DNA of 64,000 nucleotides from Bacteroidetes bacterium GWA2_40_15 (lineage in GTDB: Bacteria > Bacteroidota > Bacteroidia > Bacteroidales > VadinHA17), in NCBI GenBank assembly GCA_001768195.1, contig MENI01000077.1:1-64000 (forward strand), written 5' to 3'. Of this stretch, positions 2,367 through 60,110 are shown piece by piece. The translations under genes were made by a program, and so were the position numbers. Below the pieces are notes generated by a model. It did no database searches, had not been told where the DNA came from, and was given only the letters and a program-made list of their open reading frames with translations. Numbering within the stretch: position 1 is the first letter of the stretch; every line of letters starts with the position of its first letter.

Positions 2367-5300
2367 ATGAGAATCGTAACATGCCTTCTTCTCTGCTTAT
2401 TTGCAATATCTGCTCCGGCGCAGTACTATGACTGGCCTGCATGGAGGTATGACCATAACCGTTCAGCATCATCCCCTGAACAACTGGCTGATAAACTCTA
2501 CCTGCAATGGAAGGTGAAATATTCAGAACGGACACCTGTATGGGATGATCCGCTGAACCAGAACCTGATGCAGTTCGACAGGATCTTTGAACCAATTGTT
2601 GCCGGAAACAAGTTATTCCTTGGTTTCAATGACCAGGATAAGGTAATTGCACTTGATTTAAATACAGGTCAGGAGCTCTGGCATTATTATGCCGACGGTC
2701 CCGTGCGCTTGCCGGTAACGGCCAATAAAGGAAAGCTCTATTTCATAAGCGATGACGGTTTCTGCTACTGTCTCAATAGTGATAACGGTTCACTCTTATG
2801 GAAGCTTTCTCTTGCTCCGGCCTCAAATAAGCTACTTGGAAATAAACGGCTCATTTCAATGTGGCCCGCAAGAGGCGGCATCGTTATCAAAGATGATATA
2901 TTGTACACATCAGCAAGCATATTCCCCCTGATGGGAACTTTTATCTATTCTATCAATGCAGAAACCGGTGAAGTGATCTGGAAGAATGAGGGAACCGGAA
3001 GCAACTACATCCTGCAGCCCCATAGCTCTCCGGCATTTGCAGATGTAGCTCCACAGGGGAATTTTACGATCAGTGGCAATAAACTGCTTGTAGCAGGAGG
3101 ACGATCAGTCCCGTCGGCTTTTGATCTGAGAACAGGTGAGCAGCTCTATTACAAACTTGCTGAAAGCGGTAAGACCGGAGGCGCTTTTACCTGCGCAAAT
3201 GATAAAGTATACTTCAATCATCACAGGGGGAGGATGACATATATGTATGATTCCCAAACAGGTAACAGGATTAAAACAGAAACCGGAGAATATCCTGTTA
3301 TTGACGGAAATACAATCTACTTTTCGGGAGATGAAATAAGCGCTTCCCTGCTGACTGACAGCAATAACCTTAAATCATTATGGAAATCAGCTATTCCTGC
3401 ATCCAATGATCTTATTAAATCGGGTAATCGTTTGTATGCAGCCGATAGCAGTGGAATAACCGCAATTGAGATTGCTGATGAAACAGCTGTAATAAAATGG
3501 AGGATCCCACTGGAACAGAATATTCAAAGATTAGTAGCTTCAAACGGGAAGCTGATTGCTGTTTCGGATGATGGTGAAATCCTGGTATTCGGAGAAGCCT
3601 CTGTTTCGGAAGTTGCCTCTGTTAATAAACCTGAATCTGAGTTGAACAGCGGATCATTATCTGCAAAAGAGATCATAAATACCACAGGTTTAACAAGCGG
3701 ATACGGAGTTGTCTTCGGAACAGATGATATTAATATGCTTGAGAGCCTCATAGCAAAAACTAATCTTACATTGATAGCTTATGATAGTGATCCGTCAAGA
3801 ATATTGTATCTGCGGGAATATTTTGACAGACTCGGGGTTAAAGCTGACCGGCTGAGTTTCCTTCATTTTGATCAAACTTTTCCATTACTGCCTCAGTACT
3901 TCTCAGCACTTACAGTAATAAATGATTTGAGCTATATCAGGTTTTATGATGCTGATATTTTGAAGAAAGTATATGAATCCACCAGGCCATACGATGGAAA
4001 GATATGGATCAAAACCGGCAACAGGGAACGTAAATTACTTACAGCAGCTCTGGAAAATATTGGTTTATACGGATTGGAAAAGAGTGAGAACAGAGGCTCT
4101 GTAGTTATTTCCAGAACCGGGGCTCTTGATGGTTCAGCTGAGTGGACACATAACTACGGAGATATCTCGAACACTGTTAAATCGAATGACAGGAGGGTTA
4201 AAGCGCCTCTGGGTATATTATGGTTTGGAGGAAATTCCAACCTCGATGTCCTTCCGCGTCATGGCCACGGACCAGGGGAACAGGTAATTGATGGTCACCT
4301 TATTATTCAGGGGATGAACAGCATCAGTGCCAGGGATGTTTACACTGGAAGAGTTTTATGGGAGAGGAAATTCGAAAAACTTATAGACGATAACATGATG
4401 GTCTATTTTGATGAATCCTATGATGGAGAGAATCCACTTGATACCAAATATAATCAGGAGCACATTCCCGGATCAAATTCCAGGGGAACAAATTTCATTG
4501 CAACAAAGGAATATGTTTATGTTATTGAAGGAAACAGGTGCCACCTGATCAGTATCGACTCTGGTGATCTTATAAAGACATTTGCAACAGGAGATTCCGC
4601 AACGAAGAAACTGGGTTATATCGGGGTTTATGATAACTATCTGATCCTTGGTAATAATTTTCCCGATTTTCCTGAAATCAGGGATCCTGATGAGAAGGTG
4701 GAGAATCCTGCTTTCAGCAATTTTGATATTGCTGCAAGCCGTGAGTTAATAATCCTGGATAGATTCAGCGGTAACAGGATCTGGAGCATAAAAGCAAATC
4801 ACGGATTCATCCACAATTCGGTGATCTGCGGCGACGGACTACTCTTTTGCCTCGATAAGCTCCCGCAGAACCTGGAAACGAAACTAAAGCGAAGAGGGGA
4901 ACCACTTCCATTGGGCTCAAGACTGGTTTACATAGACATAAAGACAGGTAAAATAACTCACCAGGAGAAAAATGACATCTTTGGAACCTGGCTTGGCTAT
5001 TCTTCCGGCCATAAGTTTCTTTTGCAGGCTACCCGTCCTTCGCGCGATATGCTGACAGGGGAGTATGGAAACAGAATGATTGTGTACAATGTAAACACCA
5101 GGGAAATGGTGTGGGACCGTGATATAAAATATGCCAATCCGCCAATAATCCATGGTGACAAAATTTATACGGAAGGAGAGGGTTTCAGTCTGCTCACAGG
5201 GGATCCGATAATTGAAAAGGACCCTTTGACGGGGGAAGATAAAAAATGGAGCTATAAAAGAGAGTATGGATGCGGTATAATTGTTGCAAGTGAATATCTT

Positions 5301-6077
5301 CTTACATTCAGGTCAGCTTCTGCCGGGTTTATCAACCTTGATTTATTTGACGGTACAGGTAGCCTGGGTGGCTGGAAATCAGGATGTTCGACTAACCTTA
5401 TTGTTGCAGACGGCGTTCTGAATTCACCCGATTATACAAGGACATGCCAGTGCCCCTACCAGAACCAGACATCACTTGCTCTTGTCAATATGCCATGGAT
5501 GACATACTGGGCAAACAGCAATTATAAATGGAGCGGAAAGCAGATAAAGCAGCTGGGCCTGAACCTCAATGCCCCTGGAGACAGGACAGCTGATAATAAT
5601 ACTCTCTGGCTCGAATACCCTGTTGCCGGTGGAGCTTCACCTGATATTCCCGTAAAAATAGATTCTGCTGACTATTTTGAGATAAGAAAAGATCCTATAT
5701 CAGTGATTTCTGAAAGTTCACCATGGATAAGCTCCAGTGCAATCGGAGGAATAAGATCTCTGGAGATAACTTTGTCAAAAGATCATCAATCTGCTGAAAC
5801 AACATATAAAGTCAGCCTCTATTTTTCCGAGCTTGAAAACAAAAAGCAGGGAGAACGTGTGTTTGATGTCATAATACAGAATTATAAGGTTCTCGATGAC
5901 TTTGATATTGTAAATGAAACCGGCAGGGTCAATAAAGAGATTATCAAAACATTCACAGGCATTACTGCCGGTAAAACTCTGACTATTGAAATGCATCCTG
6001 AAAAGGGAAATACTATATTGTCAGGCATAGAGCTTACACAGGAGACTACCCCGCAAAAACAAATAAGCTTAAGATGA
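2367..6077 (+). CDS. Large exported PQQ-like beta-propeller protein with methyltransferase-like insert and malectin-like C-terminus
   Basis: A 1236-aa exported protein (signal peptide about residues 1-18). Residues about 20-420 are PQQ/WD-type propeller blades with repeated D-x-x-T-G-x-x-x-W motifs such as DLNTGQELW. Residues about 435-590 look like a class I SAM-methyltransferase fold (GYGVVFGTDD, later LTLIAYDSDPSR), although its catalytic status is unclear. A second propeller half (600-1060) contains LPRHGHGP and four clustered cysteines (YGCG, SGCS, TCQC at about residue 1026). Residues about 1100-1225 resemble a malectin-type sugar-binding domain. Similar propellers with this cysteine block occur in Planctomycetota, as I recall. 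The stop overlaps the next gene (ATGA). It is not an obvious quinoprotein dehydrogenase. Function unknown. Confidence 0.8.
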   Translation: MRIVTCLLLCLFAISAPAQYYDWPAWRYDHNRSASSPEQLADKLYLQWKVKYSERTPVWDDPLNQNLMQFDRIFEPIVAGNKLFLGFNDQDKVIALDLNTGQELWHYYADGPVRLPVTANKGKLYFISDDGFCYCLNSDNGSLLWKLSLAPASNKLLGNKRLISMWPARGGIVIKDDILYTSASIFPLMGTFIYSINAETGEVIWKNEGTGSNYILQPHSSPAFADVAPQGNFTISGNKLLVAGGRSVPSAFDLRTGEQLYYKLAESGKTGGAFTCANDKVYFNHHRGRMTYMYDSQTGNRIKTETGEYPVIDGNTIYFSGDEISASLLTDSNNLKSLWKSAIPASNDLIKSGNRLYAADSSGITAIEIADETAVIKWRIPLEQNIQRLVASNGKLIAVSDDGEILVFGEASVSEVASVNKPESELNSGSLSAKEIINTTGLTSGYGVVFGTDDINMLESLIAKTNLTLIAYDSDPSRILYLREYFDRLGVKADRLSFLHFDQTFPLLPQYFSALTVINDLSYIRFYDADILKKVYESTRPYDGKIWIKTGNRERKLLTAALENIGLYGLEKSENRGSVVISRTGALDGSAEWTHNYGDISNTVKSNDRRVKAPLGILWFGGNSNLDVLPRHGHGPGEQVIDGHLIIQGMNSISARDVYTGRVLWERKFEKLIDDNMMVYFDESYDGENPLDTKYNQEHIPGSNSRGTNFIATKEYVYVIEGNRCHLISIDSGDLIKTFATGDSATKKLGYIGVYDNYLILGNNFPDFPEIRDPDEKVENPAFSNFDIAASRELIILDRFSGNRIWSIKANHGFIHNSVICGDGLLFCLDKLPQNLETKLKRRGEPLPLGSRLVYIDIKTGKITHQEKNDIFGTWLGYSSGHKFLLQATRPSRDMLTGEYGNRMIVYNVNTREMVWDRDIKYANPPIIHGDKIYTEGEGFSLLTGDPIIEKDPLTGEDKKWSYKREYGCGIIVASEYLLTFRSASAGFINLDLFDGTGSLGGWKSGCSTNLIVADGVLNSPDYTRTCQCPYQNQTSLALVNMPWMTYWANSNYKWSGKQIKQLGLNLNAPGDRTADNNTLWLEYPVAGGASPDIPVKIDSADYFEIRKDPISVISESSPWISSSAIGGIRSLEITLSKDHQSAETTYKVSLYFSELENKKQGERVFDVIIQNYKVLDDFDIVNETGRVNKEIIKTFTGITAGKTLTIEMHPEKGNTILSGIELTQETTPQKQISLR

Positions 6078-6859
6078 AAGCTGTATATTACAGGACAATA
6101 ATTTTAGCATCACTTATCTGTCTGGCCTGCACAACAAGGGTCTCCGAATGGGTGTTGCTGAATGCCCTGCCGGATCAGTATACCCTCATCTATTTCCATA
6201 AAAATCCGGTTACCGAGACGGTAAAAAAGCAGAACAAAGAGGTTGTTGACGGGATGAAAACTGCAAATATCCATTTCAAAACAGTAGCCCGTAATGATGT
6301 CAGCGAATCCTGGTATGGATTATATTATGAAGAGAGGCTCTTTATTCGTTTCAAAACACTCCCTGAAACAAAGAATATTATCAGCTCTCCTTTACGTGAA
6401 AAAATTTCATCAGAGCTGATGTCAGGAAAACTTTGCGTGATGGTATATCTGCTGACCGATAATAGAGAAAAGGATGACACTGGCCGAAAAACATTGCAAA
6501 AGGCACTTGGAGCTTCTCCATTCGGAAGTATCATTTCAGTTGTTGAACTGAGCAGAAACAGTAAGGAAGAGAGCATTTTTGCTTCTTTACTTCTAAATGT
6601 TGAAGATGATCTTAAGGATATCCGCGAACCAATGTTATTCGGTGTTTTTGGCAGATTCAAAGCACTGGAACCGTTGTTGGGCAAAGGCATCACAGAGGAG
6701 AATATTAATCTGATGATTGATTATCTGACTTCAGAGTGCAGCTGCCTGATTAAAGACGATCTGCCGGGAACAGACATTCTGTTCAATGGTAATTGGGATA
6801 ATCCGGCTCCTGCCCTTCTGAATACAATAATTGACTCTAATCCGGCACTTGGCTTGTAA
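6074..6859 (+). CDS. Lipoprotein of unknown function with C-terminal C-S-C motif
   Basis: A 261-aa lipoprotein (lipobox LICLAC, Cys19), so probably membrane-anchored and facing the periplasm. No named domain is recognised. The C-terminal half has a conserved-looking block, REPMLFGVFGRFKALEP, followed by LTSECSCLIKDDLPG with a C-x-C pair. The start codon overlaps the stop of the propeller gene and its own stop overlaps the next start (TAATG), so the genes are translationally coupled. The cluster context (propeller protein, FtsX permease, ATPase) suggests it is a dedicated periplasmic partner of that transporter. The C-x-C pair suggests metal or disulfide chemistry, which is inference. Confidence 0.7.
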   Translation: MKAVYYRTIILASLICLACTTRVSEWVLLNALPDQYTLIYFHKNPVTETVKKQNKEVVDGMKTANIHFKTVARNDVSESWYGLYYEERLFIRFKTLPETKNIISSPLREKISSELMSGKLCVMVYLLTDNREKDDTGRKTLQKALGASPFGSIISVVELSRNSKEESIFASLLLNVEDDLKDIREPMLFGVFGRFKALEPLLGKGITEENINLMIDYLTSECSCLIKDDLPGTDILFNGNWDNPAPALLNTIIDSNPALGL

Positions 6860-7080
6860 TGCAGAACGATACAATATCATACGACACACTCGACAGCAGA
6901 CCTCTGCCCAAATGGCTGACTGACCAGAAGTCAGGAGTAAATACAATTCAGCCGCAGAAGATTACAATGAAGGAGGATAATTCGTTAAAAATTTCTTTTA
7001 TTGCAACAACAATTATTATTTTGGTTGCAGTTTCATTTTTAACATTTTACATTCTCAGAAAGCATAAGGATCAGGCATGA
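6859..7080 (+). CDS. Small single-pass membrane protein
   Basis: A 73-aa protein with a hydrophilic N-terminal half of about 45 residues, one hydrophobic helix (about residues 45-66) and a short basic tail (RKHKDQA). The topology is probably N-out/C-in by the positive-inside rule. No family is recognised. Overlapping start and stop codons on both sides (TAATG upstream, ATGATA downstream) argue strongly that it is a real gene. It may be a small subunit of the downstream FtsX-type transporter. Confidence 0.65.
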   Translation: MQNDTISYDTLDSRPLPKWLTDQKSGVNTIQPQKITMKEDNSLKISFIATTIIILVAVSFLTFYILRKHKDQA

Positions 7081-8246
7081 TAAAAACATCAAAACTTGTA
7101 ATAAAAGAGCTCCTTTACAGGAGGATCAGTTCAATAATAATCCTTTTCACAGCTATCGTGGCAAGTGCAGTCTCTGTTGCTGTTTATACTTTAAGCAAGG
7201 CAAGCGAAAACGAAACCCGGAAAATAATGCGCGAACAGGGTCTCAATCTTTACATTTTCCCGAAGGGCACAAACCTTATTGATTTTTATTCTGTAAACAA
7301 TACCGGAACATTTCCCGACAATTATGTGGATGTGCTTGCAGAATCAAAAACATTTGATGCTGTAAGACATTTAACAGGCATTTTGCAGATAAAGTATCCC
7401 GACTGGAAGGATGCAAACGGATCGACTCATCAAATAGTTCTTTTCGGATACAAAGACGAAGCTCAGCAGAAGTATCTGCCTCAACAGGAAATCATGGGAT
7501 TTGATGTAAAGAAAGGAACTGTTCAGGTTGGAGCTCTGATTGCGAAGAATATAAAACCCGATGCTCCTTTCATCATAACCGGAGTCGATGGAGAACAATA
7601 CAGTTTTAAGGTCGATAAACGTCTCGAAGAGGGAAGAGGGATAATGGACCAGGGAGTTTCGTTTTACCTTGAGGATCTTCAGCAGGTGCTTGGAATGCAG
7701 GGAAAGATCAATAAGATCGAGGCATTGGGCTGCGTTTGCAAGGATGGAAGGATAAAAAATGCCAGGAACCAGGTCCAGGCAATATTCTCTGATCTGGAAG
7801 TTACCGAATTGAGCAGCATCGCTGATGCACGCGAAAATCAAAGGGAGATGATGAATAAGTATGGCGCATTTATCATTCCCTTTATTATAATTTCTTCCTT
7901 ACTAATAACAGGACTTCTGTTTTATCAGAATGTTAATACGAGAAAAGGAGAAATCGGACTGTTAAAAGCAATGGGGAACAGTACTTTCAAAATTATGTTC
8001 CTGTTTCTCTTAAAGGCATTTATACTCGGATTAACCGGAAGCATTATTGGTTTCTTCGCCGGCAGCTGGATTGCAGAATATTTTGGCACGGAGATATTCA
8101 GGTTCACAGCTTTAAGTATAAAACCGCTGTGGTCCCTGTTTTATTATACTATCATAATTTTCCCGCTTCTGTGGATGATCAGCAGCTGGATACCTGCACT
8201 GCTTGCAACACAGGTTGATGCTGCGAAAACACTTAGTCAGGAGTAA
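7077..8246 (+). CDS. FtsX/MacB-type ABC transporter permease
   Basis: A 389-aa permease with one N-terminal helix, a large periplasmic domain (about residues 45-255, MacB_PCD-like) and three C-terminal helices forming the FtsX domain, including RKGEIGLLKAMGNS. This is the layout of MacB/LolC/E-type mechanotransmission transporters, which extrude or lift substrates at the periplasmic face rather than conduct small solutes. The periplasmic domain contains IEALGCVCKDGR with a C-x-C pair. The start overlaps the preceding stop (ATGA). The ATPase gene lies 102 nt downstream, beyond a repeat. Confidence 0.85.
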   Translation: MIKTSKLVIKELLYRRISSIIILFTAIVASAVSVAVYTLSKASENETRKIMREQGLNLYIFPKGTNLIDFYSVNNTGTFPDNYVDVLAESKTFDAVRHLTGILQIKYPDWKDANGSTHQIVLFGYKDEAQQKYLPQQEIMGFDVKKGTVQVGALIAKNIKPDAPFIITGVDGEQYSFKVDKRLEEGRGIMDQGVSFYLEDLQQVLGMQGKINKIEALGCVCKDGRIKNARNQVQAIFSDLEVTELSSIADARENQREMMNKYGAFIIPFIIISSLLITGLLFYQNVNTRKGEIGLLKAMGNSTFKIMFLFLLKAFILGLTGSIIGFFAGSWIAEYFGTEIFRFTALSIKPLWSLFYYTIIIFPLLWMISSWIPALLATQVDAAKTLSQE

Positions 8247-8280
8247 GGCAGGGGGCAATGAACAAAGAGCAAAATGGCTT

Positions 8281-8317
8281 TAAGTTCCCCTCTTGGGAGG
8301 GGCCAGGGGTGGGTTAT
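8281..8317. repeat. REP-like G/C-rich imperfect palindrome
   Basis: Lies between the permease and its ATPase. The core is cccctcttgggagggg followed by ccaggggtgggtt. Related cccctcc/ggagggg palindromes occur at 9131-9160, 43239-43260 and 43569-43588 in this window. Could form an RNA hairpin inside the operon transcript and modulate expression of the ATPase. Confidence 0.55.
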
Positions 8318-8348
8318 TCAAGGTTAAAGAAAATCAAAAGAAATAAGA

Positions 8349-8996
8349 ATGCTGGAAATCAATAATATATCAAAAACTTACAAGAAAGGCCCTGAGGAGT
8401 TTATAGCATTGAAAGATGTGACCCTGAAGATTGAAAAGGGTGAATATATTGTTGTTTCAGGTGCAAGCGGAGCCGGTAAATCAACACTCCTATATGCTCT
8501 TGGCGGTCTTATTCATCCGGAGAAAGGTGAGGTTTTATATAACGGAACAGATATCTATAAGCAGAACAGCAGTCTGACTGATAAATACAGAAAGAACCAT
8601 ATCGGATTTATGTTCCAGCAATTTCATCTTATGCCCTACCTGACTCTCCTTGAAAATATCAGGCTTTCCTGCAGGAATAAACAACAATTGGGATCAATTG
8701 ACAATTATCTTGATAAATGCTCACTTTCAGCTTTGAAAAATAAGTATCCATCGGAACTGAGTGTGGGAGAAAAGCAGAGAACTGCTTTTATCAGGGCAAT
8801 AGTATCTGATCCCGTTATTCTGCTAGCTGATGAGCCGACAGGAAATCTTGATCCTGAGAACAGCAAAATTCTTATGTCCCTTATTGATGATTTTCATAAG
8901 AGCGGAGGAACTGTTTTACTGGTTTCGCATGATCCTCTCGCAGCAAAATATGCTGACAGGAACATAATTCTCGAAAAAGGCAGACTCAGGGACTAA
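8349..8996 (+). CDS. ABC transporter ATPase, LolD/MacB family
   Basis: A 215-aa nucleotide-binding subunit. Walker A is GASGAGKST, the Q-loop region is MFQQFHLMPYLTLLEN, the ABC signature is LSVGEKQR (a variant of LSGGQ), Walker B is VILLADEPTGNLD and the switch His lies in LLVSHDPLA. The size and the F-Q-x-F-x-L-x-P region fit the LolD/FtsE/MacB class that works with FtsX-type permeases. It should power the permease encoded just upstream. No membrane span of its own. Confidence 0.9.
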   Translation: MLEINNISKTYKKGPEEFIALKDVTLKIEKGEYIVVSGASGAGKSTLLYALGGLIHPEKGEVLYNGTDIYKQNSSLTDKYRKNHIGFMFQQFHLMPYLTLLENIRLSCRNKQQLGSIDNYLDKCSLSALKNKYPSELSVGEKQRTAFIRAIVSDPVILLADEPTGNLDPENSKILMSLIDDFHKSGGTVLLVSHDPLAAKYADRNIILEKGRLRD

Positions 8997-9025: not shown

Positions 9026-9383
9026 GGGCTGTTGAAAAAGTCCATTTCTACCCCCAAACCCCCCAAGGGGCATAGCCGTCAAGCTAAGAGTAGTAATATT
9101 GATACAGAGATCAGATGAAGTCAGATGAAGTTTCCCCTCCTTTTGAAGGAGGGGAAACTTTAATGACCAAACTACATCTCAATATTTTAATCCGTTTGCC
9201 TTTATTGATCTACCATGTAATTCCTTTCTCAGACTCCTTAACTTGACGGCTATGCCCCAAGGGGGGCTTTATAACTTACTGGATTTCAATAAGTCTCCCC
9301 TTCGCCTTCGCGTAGCCGCTTCGGCGGAGCAAGGCTGGGGGATTTAGGTGTGAATTAGAGGAGGTCAACTTTTTCAACAGCCC
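9026..9383. mobile_element. MITE-like element with 16-bp perfect terminal inverted repeats
   Basis: The ends are gggctgttgaaaaagt (9026-9041) and its exact reverse complement (9368-9383), an end type seen in several DDE insertion sequence families. No transposase can be coded in the 358 bp between. Inside is a second, imperfect inverted pair containing catagccgtcaag (9061-9088 against 9237-9264, about 25 of 28 matching) and a palindrome of cccctcc/ggagggg (about 9128-9160). The gene-free stretch 8997-9486 is mostly this element. Confidence 0.7.
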
Positions 9384-9486: not shown

Positions 9487-11541
9487 TTAAAATTGTATCT
9501 GTATTCCGCCGTAAAAATTCCTCGGCAAACCCGGATAGTAATACCGTGGCTCAACATTATTGAACCCAATTGCATTAACAATCAGCATCGAAGCGTAGTG
9601 AGTGTCTGAAAGATTATTAATGCCAACATAAAACTGGAAAGGGAATCTCTTATTTTGAAAAAACTGAGAGTTTATTTTAATGTTACTTAAAAAATATCCC
9701 GGATAGTCGAGGGAGTTACTATCATTCAGATACTGCTTTCCGGTATATTGTAAATGAGTACTGATCTCCAGCATCGGAAGTGCTGCCCACCTGAACTGCA
9801 GAGCCACCGAATGATGGGGTATACCCGGAAGAATATTTCCGTCATAATTATTGCCTCCATCAGTGAATTCAATGAACCGGTTGATTGAACCTGTATAACT
9901 AATGTCCGCCAGCAGCCTGCCCGGAAAACTGCCATAATCAAACACTTTCGAATGAAATGACAGTTCAAAACCCTGGTGGCGCGACTTGCCGGCATTCATC
10001 CCGGTAAAAATGTCCTCGGCAACCCTTTTTGTAACTAACAGATCCTTAAGCTCTATCCAGTAAAGGGCAGCATCGATCCCGATTTTTCTATCCAGCACAT
10101 TAAACCTCGCTCCAACTTCATACTGCATCCCCTGCTCGGGCCTGATATCGGGATTTACATCTCCTTCAGGTAAAAGAGTCTCCTCAGGAGAGGGAAGAGA
10201 AAATCCATGTCCGATAGAACCATAAACTGCAAGAATATCTCCCGGAGCGTAGTTGATCCCAAGACGTGGTGAAACGATAAGGGGAAATTCACGGCTGCCC
10301 GACTGATCCCCATTGGCCGGATATAGATCTGTCAACCTGTATGAAACATGATTCAAAGCTCCTGCCAGTGAAATGTTAAGTTCCGGAACAGGTTTATAAT
10401 ACATTATCCCGAAAACATTAAGATGTCTCCGGTTTTCGCTGTTCTCATTAAGAAGAGTATTGTCTCTGTCGAGTTTCCATTTATACTGCTCTGCAATATA
10501 TTCTACTCCACCTGTAAATTCACTCTTCTTTGTTCTATAACTTAGCTTGCCACGGATTCCTACGCTCATCGACTGGTCATCGAGATTATTGAACGGACGC
10601 CTTTCATAGTTATCATTCAGCTTACCGAATAATGTTAAGTTGCTGGTGATCCGGCCGGATATTTTATTTGTTAATGAAATAGCTGACACACCTCTGTAAT
10701 AATCTTTATAACCGCCGATTGCTTTCCAGGCAGGAGCTGCTGACTCAGGATTTTCTTCGAACATTGTCTTACCCAGTGAGCTTGGTATGCCTCCATTTAC
10801 ATCAATAAAAAGAAATGTTGCATTAACCGACCAGGTTGGCTGGATCCAACGGGCAGTGGACAGCAATGTTGTCCGACTGTACTGGTTGTTCTCACGGTAA
10901 CCTTCGGAATTCAGATGACTGAGATTTCCCCACAATCTTGCCTTTCCGCTGTTGACAGTTCCCGAGAGATGTGCTTTAAGGGTATTAAAACTTCCGTACT
11001 GTATGCCCGGGTTCGCCTCATTTTCTGTTCTTTCCGGTGTGTACATATTGATGCTTCCTCCTAGCCCTGAACCATAGAGAGCGGATGAAGGTCCCTTTAT
11101 CACCTCTATCTTTTCAAGGCTGTTCAGATCGATCTCTTCTGGAGTTGAAACACCATCAGCGGATGTCAGGGGTATCTCATTCAGGTACGACCTGATCCTG
11201 TTGGTATTGTAGGGTGTCCTGCTTCCCATGCCCCTGATAACGATCCTGTTTGTCAGGAAAGTTCCTGTCTGCATGGTTATACCGGGAAGTGTGTTCAGGG
11301 TTGCAGCCAGGTTTGTCGCATCTGCAAGATTCAGATTATCTGTTCTTAAAACTGAGATGCTGCCGGGAATATTACGGAGCTTCCCGCTTGTCCTGTATGC
11401 AACAACACTTACATCACTCAGTATCCATATTGAATCAGGACTCTGGATTGGTGTAATGGTTTTTTCACTTTCCTGCGAATATGCATTCAGGAAAAAAAGT
11501 GCAAGCAGGATGACAAGAGCACCCTTGTGAGATCCGGTCAT
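9487..11541 (-). CDS. TonB-dependent outer-membrane receptor (candidate PQQ receptor)
   Basis: A 684-aa receptor with a signal peptide (cleavage near AYSQE), a plug domain (about residues 45-165; IVIRGMGSRTPYNTNRIRS, LEKIEVIKGPSSALYGSG) and a C-terminal 22-strand barrel ending in aromatic FYGGIQIQF. It lacks the N-terminal carboxypeptidase-regulatory domain of SusC-type proteins and has no SusD partner, so it is more like siderophore, vitamin or cofactor receptors. It lies 22 nt downstream of a PQQ-dependent sugar dehydrogenase gene on the same strand. The E. coli receptor YncD/PqqU imports PQQ and is of similar size, so PQQ uptake is a reasonable inference. Iron chelates remain possible. Confidence 0.85.
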   Translation of the reverse strand: MTGSHKGALVILLALFFLNAYSQESEKTITPIQSPDSIWILSDVSVVAYRTSGKLRNIPGSISVLRTDNLNLADATNLAATLNTLPGITMQTGTFLTNRIVIRGMGSRTPYNTNRIRSYLNEIPLTSADGVSTPEEIDLNSLEKIEVIKGPSSALYGSGLGGSINMYTPERTENEANPGIQYGSFNTLKAHLSGTVNSGKARLWGNLSHLNSEGYRENNQYSRTTLLSTARWIQPTWSVNATFLFIDVNGGIPSSLGKTMFEENPESAAPAWKAIGGYKDYYRGVSAISLTNKISGRITSNLTLFGKLNDNYERRPFNNLDDQSMSVGIRGKLSYRTKKSEFTGGVEYIAEQYKWKLDRDNTLLNENSENRRHLNVFGIMYYKPVPELNISLAGALNHVSYRLTDLYPANGDQSGSREFPLIVSPRLGINYAPGDILAVYGSIGHGFSLPSPEETLLPEGDVNPDIRPEQGMQYEVGARFNVLDRKIGIDAALYWIELKDLLVTKRVAEDIFTGMNAGKSRHQGFELSFHSKVFDYGSFPGRLLADISYTGSINRFIEFTDGGNNYDGNILPGIPHHSVALQFRWAALPMLEISTHLQYTGKQYLNDSNSLDYPGYFLSNIKINSQFFQNKRFPFQFYVGINNLSDTHYASMLIVNAIGFNNVEPRYYYPGLPRNFYGGIQIQF

Positions 11542-11563
11542 TAAAGGAGATGGTTTGAATTTG

Positions 11564-12991
11564 TTATTCCACCGGCATCAGCCGGACTATCTTTCCGGGA
11601 TTCTCGATAGCAACATATACATAACCGTCAGGGCTCATGACCACGTTCCGGACCCGGCCAATCCCTTCCAGCAGTTTTTCGCGATGCATTACGGAATGGC
11701 CGTTTAACACTACCCTCTCGAGATATTGGAAACTAAGTGATCCTATCAGCAGATTGTTGCTCCATTTTTTATACCTGTCGCCGGTCACAAATGTCATACC
11801 ACAAGGCCCGATCGATGGTATCCAGTAGAAGTTTGGCTGTTCCAATCCTTCTTTCTCGGTGAGAGGGGTAAGAACTGTACCATCATAGTTAATTCCATAA
11901 CAGATTACAGGCCAGCCATAGTTTAATCCTGGTTTAACCTGGTTCAGTTCGTCACCTCCTTTTGGGCCATGTTCAGAAATCCAGAGTTCTCCTGTGACGG
12001 GATGAAAGCATGTTCCCTGCGGATTCCGGTGGCCATAGCTGTATATTGAAGGAATTGCACCGGGAGTATTAACAAACGGATTGTCTGCAGGAATTGTACC
12101 ATCGTCATTAAGGCGATGCATTTTCCCGTTCGTATTATCCAGCTTCTGAGGAAAATCAAAATGTTGTCCGCGGTCACCGTTCCCGAAAAAGATATGACCT
12201 TTGCCGTCAAAAGCTATTTTTATTCCAAAGTGATAATTACGCTCTGTTTCAGGATTGCCTTTATAAACAGGCTGCTGGTCCACCAGTTTATTTCCCTTGA
12301 ACCTGGCTCTGAGAATGGCTGTATTACTAAAACTTTTCTCTCCCTCTTTTCGCAAAGATGAGTAGGAAATGTATATCCATCCATTATTTTTATAATCGGG
12401 GTGCAAAGCAATATCAAGCAACCCCCCCTGCCCTGAAGCCATAATAGGAGGCAACCCTTCTATCGGAGGAGAAAGTTTTCCTTTTGAAAAACGGTGAAGT
12501 GTACCTGATCTTTCAGAAATCAGCAGGTCGCCATCGGGAAGGAATGCAAGTCCCCATGGAACCCTTAGCCCTGTTACCACAGTATCAACCACAAATCGCT
12601 GAACCTCCGATTCAGTAATTCCACCCGGCAATACAGCAGACTTAAGCAGACTTTTATCTTCAGGAACTCCCTTTTTCACATATGCAGCCAGCGCATCTAT
12701 TTCAGGATCTGAAAAGGTTTTCTGAAAAGAAGGCATCCCTGCTTTTTCCAGTCCGAACTTTATGCTGTTGAATGCAAGAATATTGCCCTTTTCCTCCATC
12801 CATGCCCTGGCTGCAAATTTTTCCAGGTTGGCTCCATGGCAGCCTGAACAGAAATTCTGATAATTCATGGCAGCAGTCCGTTGTTGCTGATAATAAGCTG
12901 TATAATCTGAATTACTGAAGGAATACAAGCCAATAAAACCGGCTATAACCAGTATGATGAAGCTTACTGAAATGATTGATCTCTTTTTCAT
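11564..12991 (-). CDS. Cytochrome c - PQQ-dependent sugar dehydrogenase fusion
   Basis: A 475-aa exported protein. After an N-terminal membrane or signal helix comes a c-type haem site CSGCH (about residues 48-52) with a likely axial Met in GMPSFQKTF. From about residue 130 there is a soluble glucose dehydrogenase-like six-bladed propeller (GLRVPWGLAFLPDGDLLIS, GQGGLLDIALHPDY, YGHRNPQG, WISEHGPKGGDELN, NYGWP). Family members oxidise aldoses with PQQ and Ca2+ and pass electrons to a cytochrome, here apparently fused. No PQQ synthesis genes are visible in the window, so the cofactor may be imported. Likely cotranscribed with the TonB receptor downstream. Confidence 0.88.
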   Translation of the reverse strand: MKKRSIISVSFIILVIAGFIGLYSFSNSDYTAYYQQQRTAAMNYQNFCSGCHGANLEKFAARAWMEEKGNILAFNSIKFGLEKAGMPSFQKTFSDPEIDALAAYVKKGVPEDKSLLKSAVLPGGITESEVQRFVVDTVVTGLRVPWGLAFLPDGDLLISERSGTLHRFSKGKLSPPIEGLPPIMASGQGGLLDIALHPDYKNNGWIYISYSSLRKEGEKSFSNTAILRARFKGNKLVDQQPVYKGNPETERNYHFGIKIAFDGKGHIFFGNGDRGQHFDFPQKLDNTNGKMHRLNDDGTIPADNPFVNTPGAIPSIYSYGHRNPQGTCFHPVTGELWISEHGPKGGDELNQVKPGLNYGWPVICYGINYDGTVLTPLTEKEGLEQPNFYWIPSIGPCGMTFVTGDRYKKWSNNLLIGSLSFQYLERVVLNGHSVMHREKLLEGIGRVRNVVMSPDGYVYVAIENPGKIVRLMPVE

Positions 12992-39695: not shown

Positions 39696-42017
39696 CTAAA
39701 GTGATTTTATTTTGACACCAAATGTAAATGTCCGGGGGGTTGATGGTCCGTAAATGTAATTGCTGTCCCTGTATTTGCCACTGTCAAAATCATTCTGATA
39801 TGAGTTGAATAAGTTTTTGATGCCTGCAGAAAATTCTATCCCGGATTTAATCGACTCAAATGAAAATGTATAGCCAACCTTCATTCCCAGCTCAGTAAAA
39901 GATTCTGTGGTTACGTACTCATTAGTCTGCTGTTCAGGGGCTCCTGCAAAATGTGCGATTTCCATCGGGCCCGTAAAGACCCCGTTAAATGAGGCATTGA
40001 ATTTATTATCCGGAGTAAATGAAAGCGTCAGATATCCGTATTCATTCGGAGACCTCAGAAATGGACGTTTTGGATCCAGTCCCGGAATATTCTCAATCGG
40101 TTCATCGAACAGACTGGTTTGCAGAGTAATGCCGCCTTCAAGCTGAATCTTCTTATTATAATTTCCCCTGAGTTCAACTGTAATACCCTGAACAGAAGCT
40201 CCTGCTCCGTTACGTTTCTCATAAAGATTTCCAAATTCATCATTTCCAATTGGCTGGAGATAAAATACATTATTGAGATTTGTATAGAATCCTTCAAATG
40301 TAAATCCGGCAATGAATGTTTTTGCTGTTTTATCATAATTAACTGAAGCGCTCACGCTGTTCGAACGTTCTTCCCTGAGCCCCTGAGCCAGCTGAATTCT
40401 TGAAACCCCGCCTCCTGCAAAGGCTATATGCATATCAGTATCAAATGCCTGAGGTGCCCTGAATCCCTGTCCCCATGTCAGCCTGAACTGTGTGAAGTCC
40501 CTGAGTTTGTACAAAAAAGACAATCTCGGACTCAAAATCAGTTTGTCAACAAAGTTATGCTTATCCCCTCTCAGTCCTGCAAGAAAACTTAATGAAGGAG
40601 TAATTTCCCAGTCACTCTGTGCAAATGCGCCAAAATTCAGAGTCGTCTGGTCAATACCATAATTATATGCAGGAATTGAGTCAAGCACATCATCATAAAC
40701 AGCTTCAATGCCGGCTGTTAAAACGTTCTTCCCGGTTATGAAATCCATTATCCTGTGGTTAACCTGTGTACCTGCCTGCAAAGTAATATTTGATGTATTT
40801 CCATAAGGAGGATCAATAACATGTTCAGCTATATCCAAAAGGGAATCAGGCATAGTACCGGTGTAGTGCTTCCTGCCTGTGGTCTGGCCTGCAAAATAGG
40901 TTATAAAGGAGCTGCTCTCTTCATTGAAATTCAACTGATAATCTATGCCTCCCATCAGAACATTATGAGTCCTTTCTTCTGATTGCTGGGCCTTATAGGC
41001 TGGCTTATCAACCATTTCACCGCCATACCTGTACTCATAAAGACTGCTGAAATTCATTTCAATTTTCTGATTTGGTGTCGGACTAAAAAATGCAGTCACT
41101 CCAAATGAGTTGTTTTTCAATTCCGGAAGTTCGGAAAAGTTGTCACCGTTATGATCATACCAATCCCTGTCACGCTTGCTGACAAAGACGGTTGCTCCTG
41201 CATTTCGTGAACGGTTAATCATGTTTACGTTGCCATTCAGCATAAAATCATTCGCTTCACCGTTAATATTCTGGAATGTTGTTCCAAAATCATATCCGCC
41301 CTCCTGTGGTATTTTTGTAATTATATTTACTGTTCCACCTATGGCACTTGAGCCGTATAAAGCTGATCCGGCTCCTCTTACTACCTCAATGCGCTCCACC
41401 ATATTAGAAGGTATCTGCTCCATCCCGTATAAACCGGTGAGCGGACTGAAGATAGGCCGTCCGTTAATAAGTATCTGTGAGTATGAACCTCCGAGACCGT
41501 TCATTCTCAACTGAGTATAGTTGCATGTCTGACAGTCAGTCTCTACCCTCAGACCGGATTGAAATTTAAGTCCTTCTGAAATATTGCAGGCCTGTGCCAG
41601 GCTTAATGATTTGCTGTCAAGTATGTTTACAATTACCGGAGATTCTGTCTGTCTTTTAGCTGTCTTTGTTCCTGTAATAACCACTGATTTCAATGCCATC
41701 ATCTCCTCCTTAAGCTCAAAATTCACCTCCTGTGTCTCCCCTTTTCTAACAGTTACGGTCTTTCTTTCGGTGCTATACCCCAGGAAACTCGCTACCAGAA
41801 CATGGGTTCCTTCAGGGAGGTTAATAAGCATATAATGACCCGTCTCATCTGTTGTTGTACCCCTGGTTGTTCCTTCAATAATGATACTGGCAAAGTAAAT
41901 ATGCTCCCCATTGGATTTAACATCGCCGAAAACATTGGCATCGGTATTCTGACTGAACGCAAAGTTGTAATGAAACAGAAACAGACAGTTAATCAAAAAA
42001 AAACTTAAAAGCCTCAT
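39696..42017 (-). CDS. TonB-dependent receptor with carboxypeptidase-regulatory-like N-terminus
   Basis: A 773-aa outer-membrane receptor (signal peptide ending FAFSQ). A carboxypeptidase-regulatory-like beta-sandwich (about 25-115; GTTTDETGHYMLINLPEGTH) is followed by a plug (about 120-235; QILINGRPIFSPLTGLYG, MVERIEVVRGAGSALYGSS) and a 22-strand barrel. The plug contains a C-x2-C pair (TDCQTCNYTQLRMNG). It is too short for SusC and no SusD gene is near. Similar receptors take up metal chelates or cobamides. Cotranscription with the oxidoreductase upstream is not obvious. Confidence 0.88.
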   Translation of the reverse strand: MRLLSFFLINCLFLFHYNFAFSQNTDANVFGDVKSNGEHIYFASIIIEGTTRGTTTDETGHYMLINLPEGTHVLVASFLGYSTERKTVTVRKGETQEVNFELKEEMMALKSVVITGTKTAKRQTESPVIVNILDSKSLSLAQACNISEGLKFQSGLRVETDCQTCNYTQLRMNGLGGSYSQILINGRPIFSPLTGLYGMEQIPSNMVERIEVVRGAGSALYGSSAIGGTVNIITKIPQEGGYDFGTTFQNINGEANDFMLNGNVNMINRSRNAGATVFVSKRDRDWYDHNGDNFSELPELKNNSFGVTAFFSPTPNQKIEMNFSSLYEYRYGGEMVDKPAYKAQQSEERTHNVLMGGIDYQLNFNEESSSFITYFAGQTTGRKHYTGTMPDSLLDIAEHVIDPPYGNTSNITLQAGTQVNHRIMDFITGKNVLTAGIEAVYDDVLDSIPAYNYGIDQTTLNFGAFAQSDWEITPSLSFLAGLRGDKHNFVDKLILSPRLSFLYKLRDFTQFRLTWGQGFRAPQAFDTDMHIAFAGGGVSRIQLAQGLREERSNSVSASVNYDKTAKTFIAGFTFEGFYTNLNNVFYLQPIGNDEFGNLYEKRNGAGASVQGITVELRGNYNKKIQLEGGITLQTSLFDEPIENIPGLDPKRPFLRSPNEYGYLTLSFTPDNKFNASFNGVFTGPMEIAHFAGAPEQQTNEYVTTESFTELGMKVGYTFSFESIKSGIEFSAGIKNLFNSYQNDFDSGKYRDSNYIYGPSTPRTFTFGVKIKSL

Positions 42018-50921: not shown

Positions 50922-51038
50922 GTTCATGCCATGGCATGAACCTACAATTTAGACAAGGGTATAAGTAGGGACACGCCATGGCGTGTCCCTACAGGAAATG
51001 ACCCTATTTCCGTTCTATAATTTTCATGGCGTGTCCCT
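50919..51038. repeat. Palindromic REP cluster with ccatgg centres
   Basis: taggttcatgcc/atggcatgaaccta (50919-50944) is a perfect 26-bp palindrome. gtagggacacgcc/atggcgtgtccctac (50965-50992) is a perfect 28-bp palindrome. catggcgtgtccct (51025-51038) is a half copy of the second. This type of repeat is dispersed in many bacterial genomes. It separates the lysozyme-like gene from the GH92 remnant. Confidence 0.8.
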
Positions 51039-51100
51039 TATTTTTGAACATCTCTGCTTTTCTCCTAAATTTGGCAAATAATAATTCTAAACTCTGCTCT

Positions 51101-52986
51101 ATGAAGAAATTTACATTTATACTGATCATACTTATATTACTCATCATAACCTTTTCATGCAAGACTGCTTCGGTTCCGGAATCTGAAGACCTTACACAAT
51201 ATGTCGACCCTATGATCGGAACGGCACACTGCAGGTGGTTTCATGTTGCTCCCGGATCGAATCCGTTCGGAATGGCAAAACCCGGTCCATCAACAGACGG
51301 GCATCTTGGAAACCTGACCGGATGGGAAGCTGTCGGATATGATTTCAGGCATACATCCATTGAAGGATTCCCAAATTTCCATGAGTTCCAGGTTGGAGGC
51401 GTGGTATTCATGCCAACAACCGGAGAACTGAAAACTATTCCCGGCAAGCCTGATTCAAACGGGGAAGGATACCGCTCTTCATTTGATAAAAAGGATGAAG
51501 TATTAAAGCCCGGATACTATTCGGTAATTCTAAAGGATTATAATATTAAAGCTGAGGTAACTTCAACAGACAGAGTAAGTTTTCACCGCTACACATTCCC
51601 TGCCGGAGAAAAATCACACATCCTTTTCGATATCGGAAATAAGCAGGGTGAAAGCGGTGAAGTGAAAGATGCAAGGGTTACATATATGCCAGATGGCCGG
51701 ATTGAAGGATTCGTTGAGACTTATCCTGAATATGTAAAAAAATATCAGACAGGGGCAAGTGTAAAAATGTACTTCTCGGCTGACATCGACAGGAAACCGG
51801 AATCTTACGGGATCTTCAATAAAACGGTATCCGAATCGGGAAAGAATGAAGCAACCGGTCAGGGTGCTGGTCTTTATCATGCACTGAAGGGACGCGGCCT
51901 GGCAAGTGATATAAACGGCGCTTATCCAAAGAATGATGGCACTGTAGGACAGATACCCCCGGGAGCGGACAACAAGCCTCAATTTAAGTTCTATAATACT
52001 GATGGTATATGGGGAGGGCAGTGGAACCTGATACAGCTCTGGGCCCTGGTATACCCTGAATACCTTACCGGTTTCATTAATACCCATCTGACCGTTTACA
52101 ACGATGCCGGCTGGCTTGGCGATGGTATTGCCAACAGCAAATATGTATCGGGTGTAGGGACCAACCAGGTTCCACTGGCAATTGTTGCTGCATATATGTG
52201 CGGCATCAGGGATTTCGATATTCAGAAAGGCTATGAAGCATCCCTGAAAAATGAGATAACATCAGAGGGACGTGTTTTCGGAGCAGGTAAGATGGATGTG
52301 GAAAAGTTTGTAAAATACGGCTATGTCCCATACATGGAAAAAGGAGAAGGATCGGATGAACTATGGAGATTTGCCTGTTCACATACCCTTGAATATTCAT
52401 ACACCTCGTGGGAAGGGATGAATTCAATACCAGGCTCGACAGCATTTTCCTGATATCGCAGAAAGATCTGTTTGGCGGCGGTACTGAGATCCATGCCTTT
52501 GCAGGTATAACCAAACCCTATAACCATGGCAATCAGCCATGCCTCCATACATCATTCCTCTTCAACCACTCCGGAATGCCTTCAAAAACACAGAAGTGGG
52601 TCAGGGCCATATGTAAGGATTTCTATGGAACGGAAGGGATCCATGGGTACGGTTTTGGACAGGATGAGGATCAGGGTCAGCTGGGTGCATGGATAGTAAT
52701 GGCAGGAATGGGGCTTTTTGATGTTAAGGGATTAACAGATCAGGTGCCGGCATTTGGCATTGGCAGCCCTCTTTTTGATAAGATATCGATCAGTCTGAAC
52801 AACAAATATTATCAGGGAAAAGTGTTTGTGATAGAGGCAGAAAACAACAGCCCCGAGAATGTTTATATTCAATCGATGTTACTGAATGATAGCGATCTGA
52901 ACAGAACTTTTGTTCCTTTCCGGGAGGTCGTAAAAGGCGGTAGCTTGAAACTTAAAATGGGAAGCGAGCCTAAGGACAGTTACTAA
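51101..52986 (+). pseudogene. GH92 alpha-mannosidase with internal deletions and frameshift
   Basis: The start at 51101 gives a lipoprotein signal (TFSC). The GH92 N-terminal domain is clear (YVDPMIGTAHCRWFHVAPGS). After about residue 270 the chain jumps from SGKNEATGQGAG to LYHALKGRGLASDINGAY, missing about 90-100 residues of a typical member. At about 52410 it jumps again, from LEYSYTSWE to the out-of-frame RDEFNTRLDSIF. About 110-130 residues are missing there, including the TEGNAWQY-type segment with the catalytic Glu. The last part (HGNQPCLHTSFLFN, GQDEDQGQLGAW) runs to a normal C-terminus. Intact relatives are about 740 aa. Inactive. Confidence 0.85.
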
Positions 52987-58719: not shown

Positions 58720-60110
58720 ATGACTACCCGGCTGACCTTTTTAATCCTGCTCTTATCTCTTATTTCTCATTCATGTTATTCAACCGACTGGCCTGTACTG
58801 AAAAAATATGACCGTGAACGCATCTACAAAATTGCTATGCCTGTAGGTGGAATCGGAACAGGTACTGTCTCTCTCGGGGGAAGGGGAAACCTCCAGGACT
58901 GGGAGATTATGGGAAGGCCGGCAAAAGGATATAACCCGGGACCGGGAAGAAACAATTCACCATTCTTCACCCTTTATACAGAAGCAAATGGCAAAAAAGA
59001 TCTCCGGCTAATTGAAGGAGCCCTCCCATTTTACGAGTATGAGGGAGCATCCGGCGCTATAGCCACAAATCATGGACTGCCAAGGTTCAGTGAAGCCACA
59101 TTCGATGCTGCTTATCCTTTCGGACAGGTAAACCTCAGAACTCCTCAGATCCCTGTAAGTGTCAGGATGAAAGCATTTAATCCGATGATCCCCGGCGATA
59201 TTGACAACAGCAGTATACCTGTGGCAGTAATTGACTATGAGCTGACCAATCACTCAAAGGAAGCGGTTAAATTCAGCATTTGCGGACCGATGAAAATCTG
59301 TTCAACGGAGAGTATTACATCCATAAAATAATTATCCCGGAGAAGGAAGATATACCGGAAGAACAGCTTGTGGGAATGGGGTCAGCTGATTATGGAAATC
59401 CCGATTACCAGCTGGGTGAAGGCTGCCTGGTGGACCAGCTTGTTGGCCAGTATCTTGCACATGTCTGCGGACTGGGTTATCTTCTCAAAAAAGAGAATGT
59501 TGCAAAAACCCTGGAGAGCATTATGAAGTACAATTACAAGAGCGACCTCTCAGATCATTTCAATTGTTTCAGGAGTTATGCCCTCGGCAATGAAGCAGCC
59601 TTGCTAATGGCCTCCTATCCAAAATCACGACCGGTCAATCCATTCCCGTACTTCACCGAAGTAATGACAGGTTTCGAATATACTGCTGCCATCGGTATGC
59701 TTTATGAAGGCCAGACTGACGAAGGATTGAAATGTATTGCCAATATACGCGACAGGTATGACGGGCGTAAGAGAAGTCCATTCGACGAAGCTGAATGTGG
59801 CCATCATTATGGAAGGGCTATGGCAAGCTGGTCGTCTGCTTTGGCATTGACAGGTTTCCATTATTCAGCTGTTACAAAGGAGATGAAATTTGGAGATAAA
59901 ACAGGCAGATACTTCTGGTCAGACGGATATGCATACGGAACAGCCGATATATCAGCCGGAGAAGCCGGAGCAAAAAGATCTGTTCTTATCACCGTTCTGA
60001 ATGGCAGATCAGAGATAATAAAAATGACAATAGAAGGAGCAGGATCAGTATCAGGAAAGAAAGTAAGATCATTAAATGCCGGGGATAGTGAAACTTTCAT
60101 AATCAGGTAA
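58720..60110 (+). pseudogene. GH116 glucosylceramidase-like gene with large internal deletion and frameshift
   Basis: The N-terminal part (58720-59300) has a signal peptide and the GH116 N-terminal domain: MPVGGIGTGTVSLGGRGNLQ and DWEIMGRPAKGYNPGPG. The chain is then interrupted near 59290 at FSICGPM. The remaining sequence, out of frame from about 59280, begins [16 protein letters not shown] and continues through the C-terminal part of the catalytic domain ([20 protein letters not shown]). The middle 400 or so residues, including both catalytic residues (by family knowledge), are missing. Intact relatives are about 850 aa. Confidence 0.82.

Follow-up and report, generated by a model that had tools for sequence, protein, structure and literature searches.

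ATP-binding cassette (ABC) transporters of type VII are defined by four membrane helices, the first two of which enclose a large periplasmic domain, and MacB-like systems of this type use ATP for movement in the periplasm and not for passage of a substrate through the inner membrane, a mode of action referred to as mechanotransmission (PMC5985334). We analyzed a stretch of 64,000 nucleotides from Bacteroidetes bacterium GWA2_40_15 (contig MENI01000077.1, positions 1 to 64,000, forward strand; the whole stretch is referred to as the window here), in which five forward-strand genes at 2367-8996 combine such a transporter pair with partners of other kinds. In order, this cassette encodes a propeller protein, an exported protein that we call the anchor, a one-helix protein, an FtsX-type permease and a LolD-like ATPase. 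Three of the five proteins carry sets of invariant cysteines, and the five genes almost certainly belong to a real envelope system with a single function. The best explanation that we can offer is a dedicated envelope type VII ABC system acting on a thiol-bound ligand in the periplasm, likeliest a soft metal, a metalloid or a complex of one; we put the probability of this reading at roughly 45%.

The propeller gene (2367-6077) encodes an exported protein of 1,236 amino acids with Pfam matches to PQQ_2 (E-value, 2e-25) and, at the C terminus, to Malectin (9e-12). It is followed by the anchor gene (6074-6859; 261 amino acids), the one-helix gene (6859-7080; 73 amino acids, made up of a linker and a membrane helix), the gene of a permease with the FtsX/MacB fold (7077-8246; 389 amino acids; Pfam FtsX, 1.5e-13, 51.2 bits against a cut-off of 25.5) and that of an ABC ATPase of the LolD/FtsE/MacB type (8349-8996; 215 amino acids; Pfam ABC_tran, 2.7e-31), which is syntenic in relatives. 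The anchor and the one-helix protein have no Pfam match, and no NCBIfam family cut-off was reached by the first four proteins or, among the best 25 of its 202 matches, by the ATPase. An earlier description of the window made from its letters alone (the sequence-only reading) had the first four genes coupled start to stop, and the junctions confirm this: ATGA overlaps join the propeller and anchor genes at 6074 and the one-helix and FtsX genes at 7077, and the TAA of the anchor gene (6857-6859) runs into the ATG of the one-helix gene (6859) as TAATG. The ATPase gene starts 102 bases after the FtsX gene. A repeat said to precede it could not be confirmed, the G-rich motif at 8290-8315 being single in the window at up to three mismatches. 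Repeat-like G-rich and C-rich stretches lie on either side of the ATPase gene (8250-8330 and about 9030-9360).

The sequence-only reading drew attention to C-x-C pairs in the three exported members, and these pairs are found at exact residues as TCQC in the propeller (C1027 and C1029), ECSC in the anchor (C222 and C224, 6737-6745) and GCVC in the FtsX protein (C219 and C221, 7731-7739). With a cysteine frequency of 0.87% in the window's open reading frames, three proteins as long as these would all contain one or more C-x-C by chance with a probability of about 5e-5; C-x-C occurs in 6 of the 46 reading frames of at least 150 amino acids, three of which belong to the cassette. The pairs are real, but they turn out to be parts of larger invariant sets. 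In the propeller, four cysteines (5271-5453) form the set, namely, C969 (5271-5273), C1007 (5385-5387), C1027 (5445-5447) and C1029 (5451-5453), all of them cysteine in the 45 ungapped rows of a 47-row alignment in which two rows are gapped at these positions. In the anchor, an N-terminal cysteine (C19, 6128-6130) accompanies the C-x-C. Anchors occur in two types, that of the window (type A) and another (type B), and the C-x-C is present in 55 of 56 anchor rows scoring above 100 bits, the exception being a fragment of a broken gene spread over two overlapping frames (locus L057). Alignments of chosen rows gave the C-x-C in 11 of 11 and the first cysteine in 10 of 10 type A anchors (one row lacks the N terminus) and both features in 16 of 16 type B anchors. 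In FtsX, the motif AL.C.C is found in all 57 rows of the branch to which the window's protein belongs (CxC branch, delimited by profile scores of 356-568 bits), whereas it is absent from the nearest relatives (13 rows, 224-253 bits) and from 6 outgroup rows from the window's own genome; this count includes rows of at least 300 amino acids, those identical in their C-terminal 200-375 residues being counted once. Conservation of the cysteines among homologues, on which the sequence-only reading had staked its idea, therefore speaks in favor of that idea, as they are fixed in FtsX, anchor and propeller.

Among PDB structures, the FtsX profile is closest to MacB (3e-14) and LolE (4e-14), and hydropathy places hydrophobic stretches at residues of about 11-42, 258-287, 299-333 and 350-378, which corresponds to four membrane helices, a large periplasmic domain separating the first from the second, as in type VII ABC transporters. 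The NCBIfam cut-offs of the described families are missed throughout: those of LolCDE (lolCE, 25.5 versus 362.45; LolD, 184.1 versus 307.75), of the MacB equivalog (11 bits for the permease and 147.4 bits for the ATPase versus 966) and of FtsEX (FtsX_Gneg, 19.5 versus 255; FtsE, 175.1 versus 264.85). These comparisons point to a type VII (MacB/LolCDE/FtsEX-like) ABC pair as the engine, a known class with new partners. The anti-phage models of PADLOC matched neither the propeller nor the anchor nor the one-helix protein, and all their matches to the FtsX protein and the ATPase were of the ATPase or permease type; a role in anti-phage defense was rejected as unsupported by this result.

Pfam and alignment with relatives divide the propeller protein into a PQQ_2/BamB-like propeller, a methyltransferase-like segment, a second propeller-like half and the malectin domain. 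The sequence-only label of a propeller/methyltransferase protein thus holds for the propeller, whereas the methyltransferase part, located by aligning relatives at residues of about 440-590 (window positions about 3680-4140), is degenerate and without a Pfam match in the window's protein; Pfam does recognize it in two of three tested relatives (L056 and L071). A methyltransferase-like segment is also seen in the exported propellers of L143 (3-3551, minus strand), L056 (3655-8538) and L057 (4868-8425). S-Adenosylmethionine is unexpected outside the cytoplasm. The propeller remains far from the NCBIfam cut-offs for BamB (56.7 versus 285.2) and PQQ dehydrogenase (30.2 versus 480.05).

Type A and type B anchors are homologous from the first cysteine through the C-x-C (hhalign, 99.3%; E-value, 5e-20), and the anchor profile has a weak match to a monothiol glutaredoxin (E-value, 0.025); the anchor possibly consists of two thioredoxin-like domains. 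Judged by eye against the lipobox rule, its former label as a lipoprotein is doubtful: the residues up to the N-terminal cysteine read CLAC in the window, SLPC in L039 and RAC, NAC or EAC in several relatives, and A-x-A|C sites or SLPC-like forms are frequent among relatives. Beyond the window's clade, anchors continue past the C-x-C into a linker, followed by a basic-tailed membrane helix at the C terminus. Within this clade, the anchor stops about 40 residues past the C-x-C, and a separate one-helix gene follows. Because all 23 anchors without a C-terminal helix, and none of the other 31, have a separate one-helix gene among 54 nonredundant anchors, the comparison identifies the one-helix protein as the split-off membrane anchor (linker and helix) of the anchor protein, a split of the gene being the simplest reading. 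Thirty of these 31 anchors have a clear predicted helix and one (L137) lies just under the cut-off; among loci L134-L151, a one-helix gene is found in L144 only. By the positive-inside rule, the one-helix protein is probably oriented with its N terminus outside and its C terminus inside.

To describe the distribution of the cassette, named bacterial genomes were scanned with the FtsX alignment. This yielded 42 loci, 38 from Bacteroidota and 4 from Armatimonadota/Zipacnadia, some of them incomplete at contig ends. The carriers include environmental isolates such as Draconibacterium aestuarii (L042) and Mariniphaga sediminis (L049). A propeller is present in 37, an ATPase in 35, a type A anchor in 26 and the other anchor type in 12; the four loci without an anchor (L050, L053, L055 and L071) either lie on short contigs or begin at the end of a contig. 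Type A loci have the order propeller, anchor, one-helix protein, FtsX, ATPase, and the 14 type B loci (L055, L058-L067 and L069-L071) mostly have the order FtsX, ATPase, propeller, anchor, or else the anchor leads; in Armatimonadota, either anchor type occurs. Among 393 genomes of the window's order, FtsX of the CxC branch (>300 bits) is found in 11 and the propeller in 12, namely, the same 11 and G816, in which the propeller and a type B anchor occupy a 4.7-kb contig. A scattering of homologues without their neighbors, which would have spoken against a common function, is thus not what we observe in this order, where 11 of 12 propeller genomes hold the CxC-branch FtsX. The co-occurrence that the sequence-only reading expected across phyla is tidy in this Bacteroidota order but less so in the Armatimonadota phylum (that of G639, Zipacnadia/Armatimonadota): there, 10 of 151 genomes have a CxC-branch FtsX, two more have a relative at 233-241 bits, and the ten stretches concerned (L134-L143) contain 9 anchors, 9 ATPases and 7 propellers. 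When 395 genomes were drawn evenly from the window's phylum, the window's genome was the sole match to the type A anchor profile at 1e-6, and a plasmid collection gave two weak FtsX matches, one match to the malectin region and no anchor match. Misses are possible in these genome searches, which score no more than a few candidates for each genome (two in the TonB search). The cassette is rare, and in Bacteroidota it moves as a unit; by synteny and alignment, the five genes make up one conserved unit.

In 19 Bacteroidota loci, TonB receptors within 2.4 kb of the cassette belong to one family, with mutual identities of 34-76% (L144 was left out of the 19 as a duplicate from the same genome as L036). 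This family is kept in 16 of the 38 Bacteroidota loci of the FtsX scan, many of which are on short contigs, and, among the 29 loci (including Armatimonadota) whose flanks extend 1.5 kb or more in both directions, lies within 1.2 kb of the cassette in 10. As cassette-adjacent receptors served to build the profile, adjacency is not independent evidence; the search across the window's order is independent, and here the family was found at 1e-120 in 6 of 393 genomes, all of them inside the 11 with the cassette (P of about 9e-11, assuming independent genomes), on a different contig from the cassette in G007 and G228. The window has two TonB receptors of its own, which share 20-41% identity over 29-327 residues with this family or do not match it. 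One of them (9487-12991, minus strand) is closest to YncD/PqqU among PDB structures (5e-35), reaches 167 of the 1,200 bits required for the PqqU family and lies 22 bases behind a gene for a fusion of cytochrome c and GSDH, which we take to be a sugar dehydrogenase of the pyrroloquinoline quinone (PQQ) type. This receptor and the fusion gene are likely a PQQ-scavenging operon that is separate from the cassette (PMC12124388). PQQ handling by way of this neighbor was rejected as a part of the cassette, whose relatives use a different TonB family. The second receptor (39696-42017, minus strand) has a DCQTCN motif, i.e., a CxxC, in its plug region. Farther along the window, two glycosidase-like genes (recognized by eye; 51026-52986 and 58720-60110, plus strand) each consist of two overlapping reading frames in different frames, possibly owing to broken genes or sequencing errors.

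Type B loci have neighbors of another kind. Four of the 14 (L058, L061, L065 and L066) have a ModABC-type importer next to the gene row or inside it, its frames almost abutting FtsX in L058. The binding proteins of L065, L058 and L061 exceed the modA cut-off of 62.5 bits with scores of 111, 108 and 117, whereas the permeases of L065 (206) and L058 (201) stay below theirs (210) and the ATPase of L058 is well below the molybdate/tungstate cut-off. MoeB-rhodanese proteins are encoded between the cassette and ModABC in L065 (17286-18419) and L066 (13321-14496). Genes resembling heterodisulfide reductase (named by eye) were also seen in seven loci (L030, L037, L038, L040, L041, L048 and L053), either close to the cassette or immediately downstream of it, and six of these loci also have PurL; these genes seem to be passengers of one genome group and were not retained as cassette partners.

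The nearest relatives of the cassette's permease place it beside arsenic resistance. In a tree of 74 sequences of at least 360 amino acids, FtsX relatives scoring 200-253 bits form a clade of their own (support, 98/98), with the CxC branch (100/99) beside it; the tree tool flagged long outgroup branches and an odd composition in ten rows. Of the 22 genomes of the order that hold such relatives, we inspected the surroundings in 21, leaving out G862 with its 3-kb contig. With presumed names for ArsR, ArsC, ACR3, ArsM and ArsG, and with ArsP and the methyltransferase domain assigned by Pfam, we counted ArsR in 20 stretches, ACR3 in 18, ArsC in 18, ArsM-like proteins in 9, ArsG-like proteins in 9 and ArsP in 8, so that at least one of ACR3, ArsC, ArsM and ArsP is present in 19 of the 21. 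Neither a propeller nor a TonB receptor of the cassette family was found in these 21 stretches. All of them encode an exported tandem-domain partner protein with a conserved C-terminal cysteine tail (L152, L153 and L159-L177). Its two halves match each other (96.5%; E-value, 1e-9), and its first half matches thioredoxins at 63% (7e-5) and its second at 25%, with FtsX and ATPase controls at 0.1 and 0.2%. The partner also matches both anchor families (hhalign, 92.7%, E-value of 4e-7, and 94.5%, E-value of 8e-8), chiefly via its second half. A survey of transporters in ars operons counts five ABC transporters, and neither FtsX nor MacB appears in its main text (PMC4435449); the main text of another ars survey contains neither "ABC transporter" nor "MacB" (PMC6205960).

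The sequence-only reading proposed that the cysteine pairs share a common ligand. This is plausible and, in comparison with the arsenic-linked branch, gains weight because the nearest relatives of the cassette's FtsX sit in arsenic-resistance clusters. That the ligand of the cassette is a soft metal or metalloid remains a tentative proposal, to which we would give somewhat less than even odds. In such a system, ATP use by the FtsX-ATPase pair would reshape the periplasmic domain as in MacB, without moving the ligand through the inner membrane, and the moving domain would act on the membrane-tethered anchor and on the propeller; the C-x-C of FtsX, the C...C-x-C of the anchor and the four cysteines of the propeller would hand on, load or release the thiol-bound ligand. 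In Bacteroidota, the ligand would enter via the TonB receptor, and in the window's genome it may arrive by another receptor, since the usual TonB family was not found there. The arsenic-linked branch would then be a detoxifying version of the same chemistry. A bolder form of this idea, for which the odds are lower again, is a class of ATP-driven thiol relays in which an engine with its own C-x-C passes a metal or metalloid between a tethered C...C-x-C carrier and a four-cysteine propeller, fed by TonB in many Bacteroidota, with one branch serving acquisition or cofactor loading and the other arsenic defense. Of the export or lifting machine envisaged earlier, the class of ABC transporter fits, but the TonB receptor and the ModABC importers of four type B loci favor uptake or processing. 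Copper, the metal then suggested, has no specific support: by eye, no copper gene was noticed beside the cassette in the gene listings, in which none was searched for.

Several observations weigh against a thiol-bound metal or metalloid as the ligand of a tethered, TonB-fed carrier. The cysteines could form disulfides. The 65 CxC-branch loci inspected, among them short ones and others from a single genome, yielded no ars gene, and the linked TonB family was found neither in the window's genome nor beside any Armatimonadota locus. The propeller went unrecognized in three of the ten Armatimonadota-phylum stretches (L134, L135 and L141) and the anchor in one (L135), to which frame errors or contig ends may contribute. 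A thioredoxin-like nature of the anchor finds no echo in the halves of the window's protein, which match thioredoxins at 0.3 and 1.1% (controls, 0.1% for FtsX and 0.2% for the ATPase) and each other at 0.9% (0.5% in type B); the link from the arsenic-branch partner reaches the second half at 56% and the first at 0.2%. Finally, the retention of the glycine-rich motif of the methyltransferase-like segment by several Armatimonadota proteins does not fit; in the window's propeller, this motif is decayed.

The strongest rival is disulfide maturation, in which the anchor would form or shuffle two disulfides in the propeller, the C-x-C of FtsX would serve as redox partner or gate and ATP would be spent on folding the propeller. 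An even number of invariant cysteines in the propeller, a membrane-tethered and possibly thioredoxin-like anchor and the joint presence of propeller and FtsX in 11 of 11 genomes of the order all agree with it, and a metal role and a disulfide role look alike at the level of sequence. However, the anchors have no conserved CxxC, their C-x-C sitting near the end of the conserved region, and the arsenic-linked branch keeps a related cysteine-tailed protein in 21 of 21 stretches, although no propeller was found in them; the TonB receptor and ModABC would be left without a role as well. We consider this rival unlikely, though it is the one to be taken most seriously. That the three cysteine sets have structural roles and coincide by chance in unrelated proteins of one operon is very improbable: a single C-x-C does occur in 3 of the window's 43 other reading frames of at least 150 amino acids, yet the cassette's cysteines are invariant across two phyla in three proteins, and the arsenic-linked sister clade is without the C-x-C.

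Two further possibilities keep parts of the picture, and we regard both as improbable. The neighbors of the type B loci would suit the acquisition of molybdenum or tungsten, with a TonB receptor importing a complex of the metal, the thiol proteins releasing it and ModABC importing it for molybdopterin enzymes; the importer stands at 4 of 14 type B loci, with MoeB-rhodanese at two, and the three binding proteins tested exceed the modA cut-off. Against this, no ModABC was recognized among the genes listed for the type A and the Armatimonadota loci, the tested permeases and one ATPase fall short of the molybdate/tungstate cut-offs, and these neighbors may be passengers of a single lineage. If the engine instead sorted the propeller to the outer membrane or the cell surface in a Lol-like manner, the cysteines being structural, one would understand why FtsX comes closest to MacB and LolE, why the ATPase resembles LolD most and why many type B propellers begin with what by eye are lipoprotein-like signals. 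The scores below the LolCE and LolD cut-offs and the signal of the window's propeller, by eye of the signal peptidase I type, argue against sorting, which also leaves the C-x-C of FtsX itself and the propeller-less arsenic-linked branch unexplained.

The earlier statement that no characterized system has this composition stands as far as the literature could be followed: by titles and the starts of abstracts, a full-text search returned no description of the cassette's composition or of its arsenic-linked sister. The class of the engine is known, but the anchor and the one-helix protein have no match among Pfam or NCBIfam families. Should the ligand turn out to be a soft metal or metalloid, the cassette would represent a new use of mechanotransmission, for thiol chemistry outside the inner membrane, and would account for the FtsX-ABC pair in arsenic-resistance clusters of Bacteroidales. 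With fixed cysteines, a linked TonB receptor and a related arsenic branch at hand, the idea is open to direct tests.

Among described systems, the copper loading of nitrous oxide reductase by NosDFY-NosL likewise combines an ABC pair, a periplasmic protein, a lipoprotein and a soft metal, but its ABC type differs and its partners are unrelated. With MacAB-TolC, LolCDE, FtsEX and YbbAP-TesA, the cassette shares an FtsX-fold permease with a large periplasmic domain and a separate LolD-like ATPase; it differs from them in scores outside their family cut-offs, in the periplasmic C-x-C of its FtsX and in its partners, a four-cysteine propeller, an anchor that matches no Pfam family and, as a further partner in many Bacteroidota, receptors of one TonB family. 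The propeller resembles BamB and the PQQ quinoproteins in its PQQ_2-type beta-propeller, but is set apart from them by its distance from their cut-offs, its four invariant cysteines and its malectin and methyltransferase-like parts. The closest likeness is to the FtsX-ABC module of Bacteroidales ars clusters, which has the nearest FtsX relatives, an ATPase of the same kind and a partner related to the anchor with a conserved cysteine end; it differs in an FtsX without the C-x-C, in the lack of a propeller in the 21 stretches and in the company of ACR3, ArsC, ArsR and, in some clusters, ArsM and ArsP.

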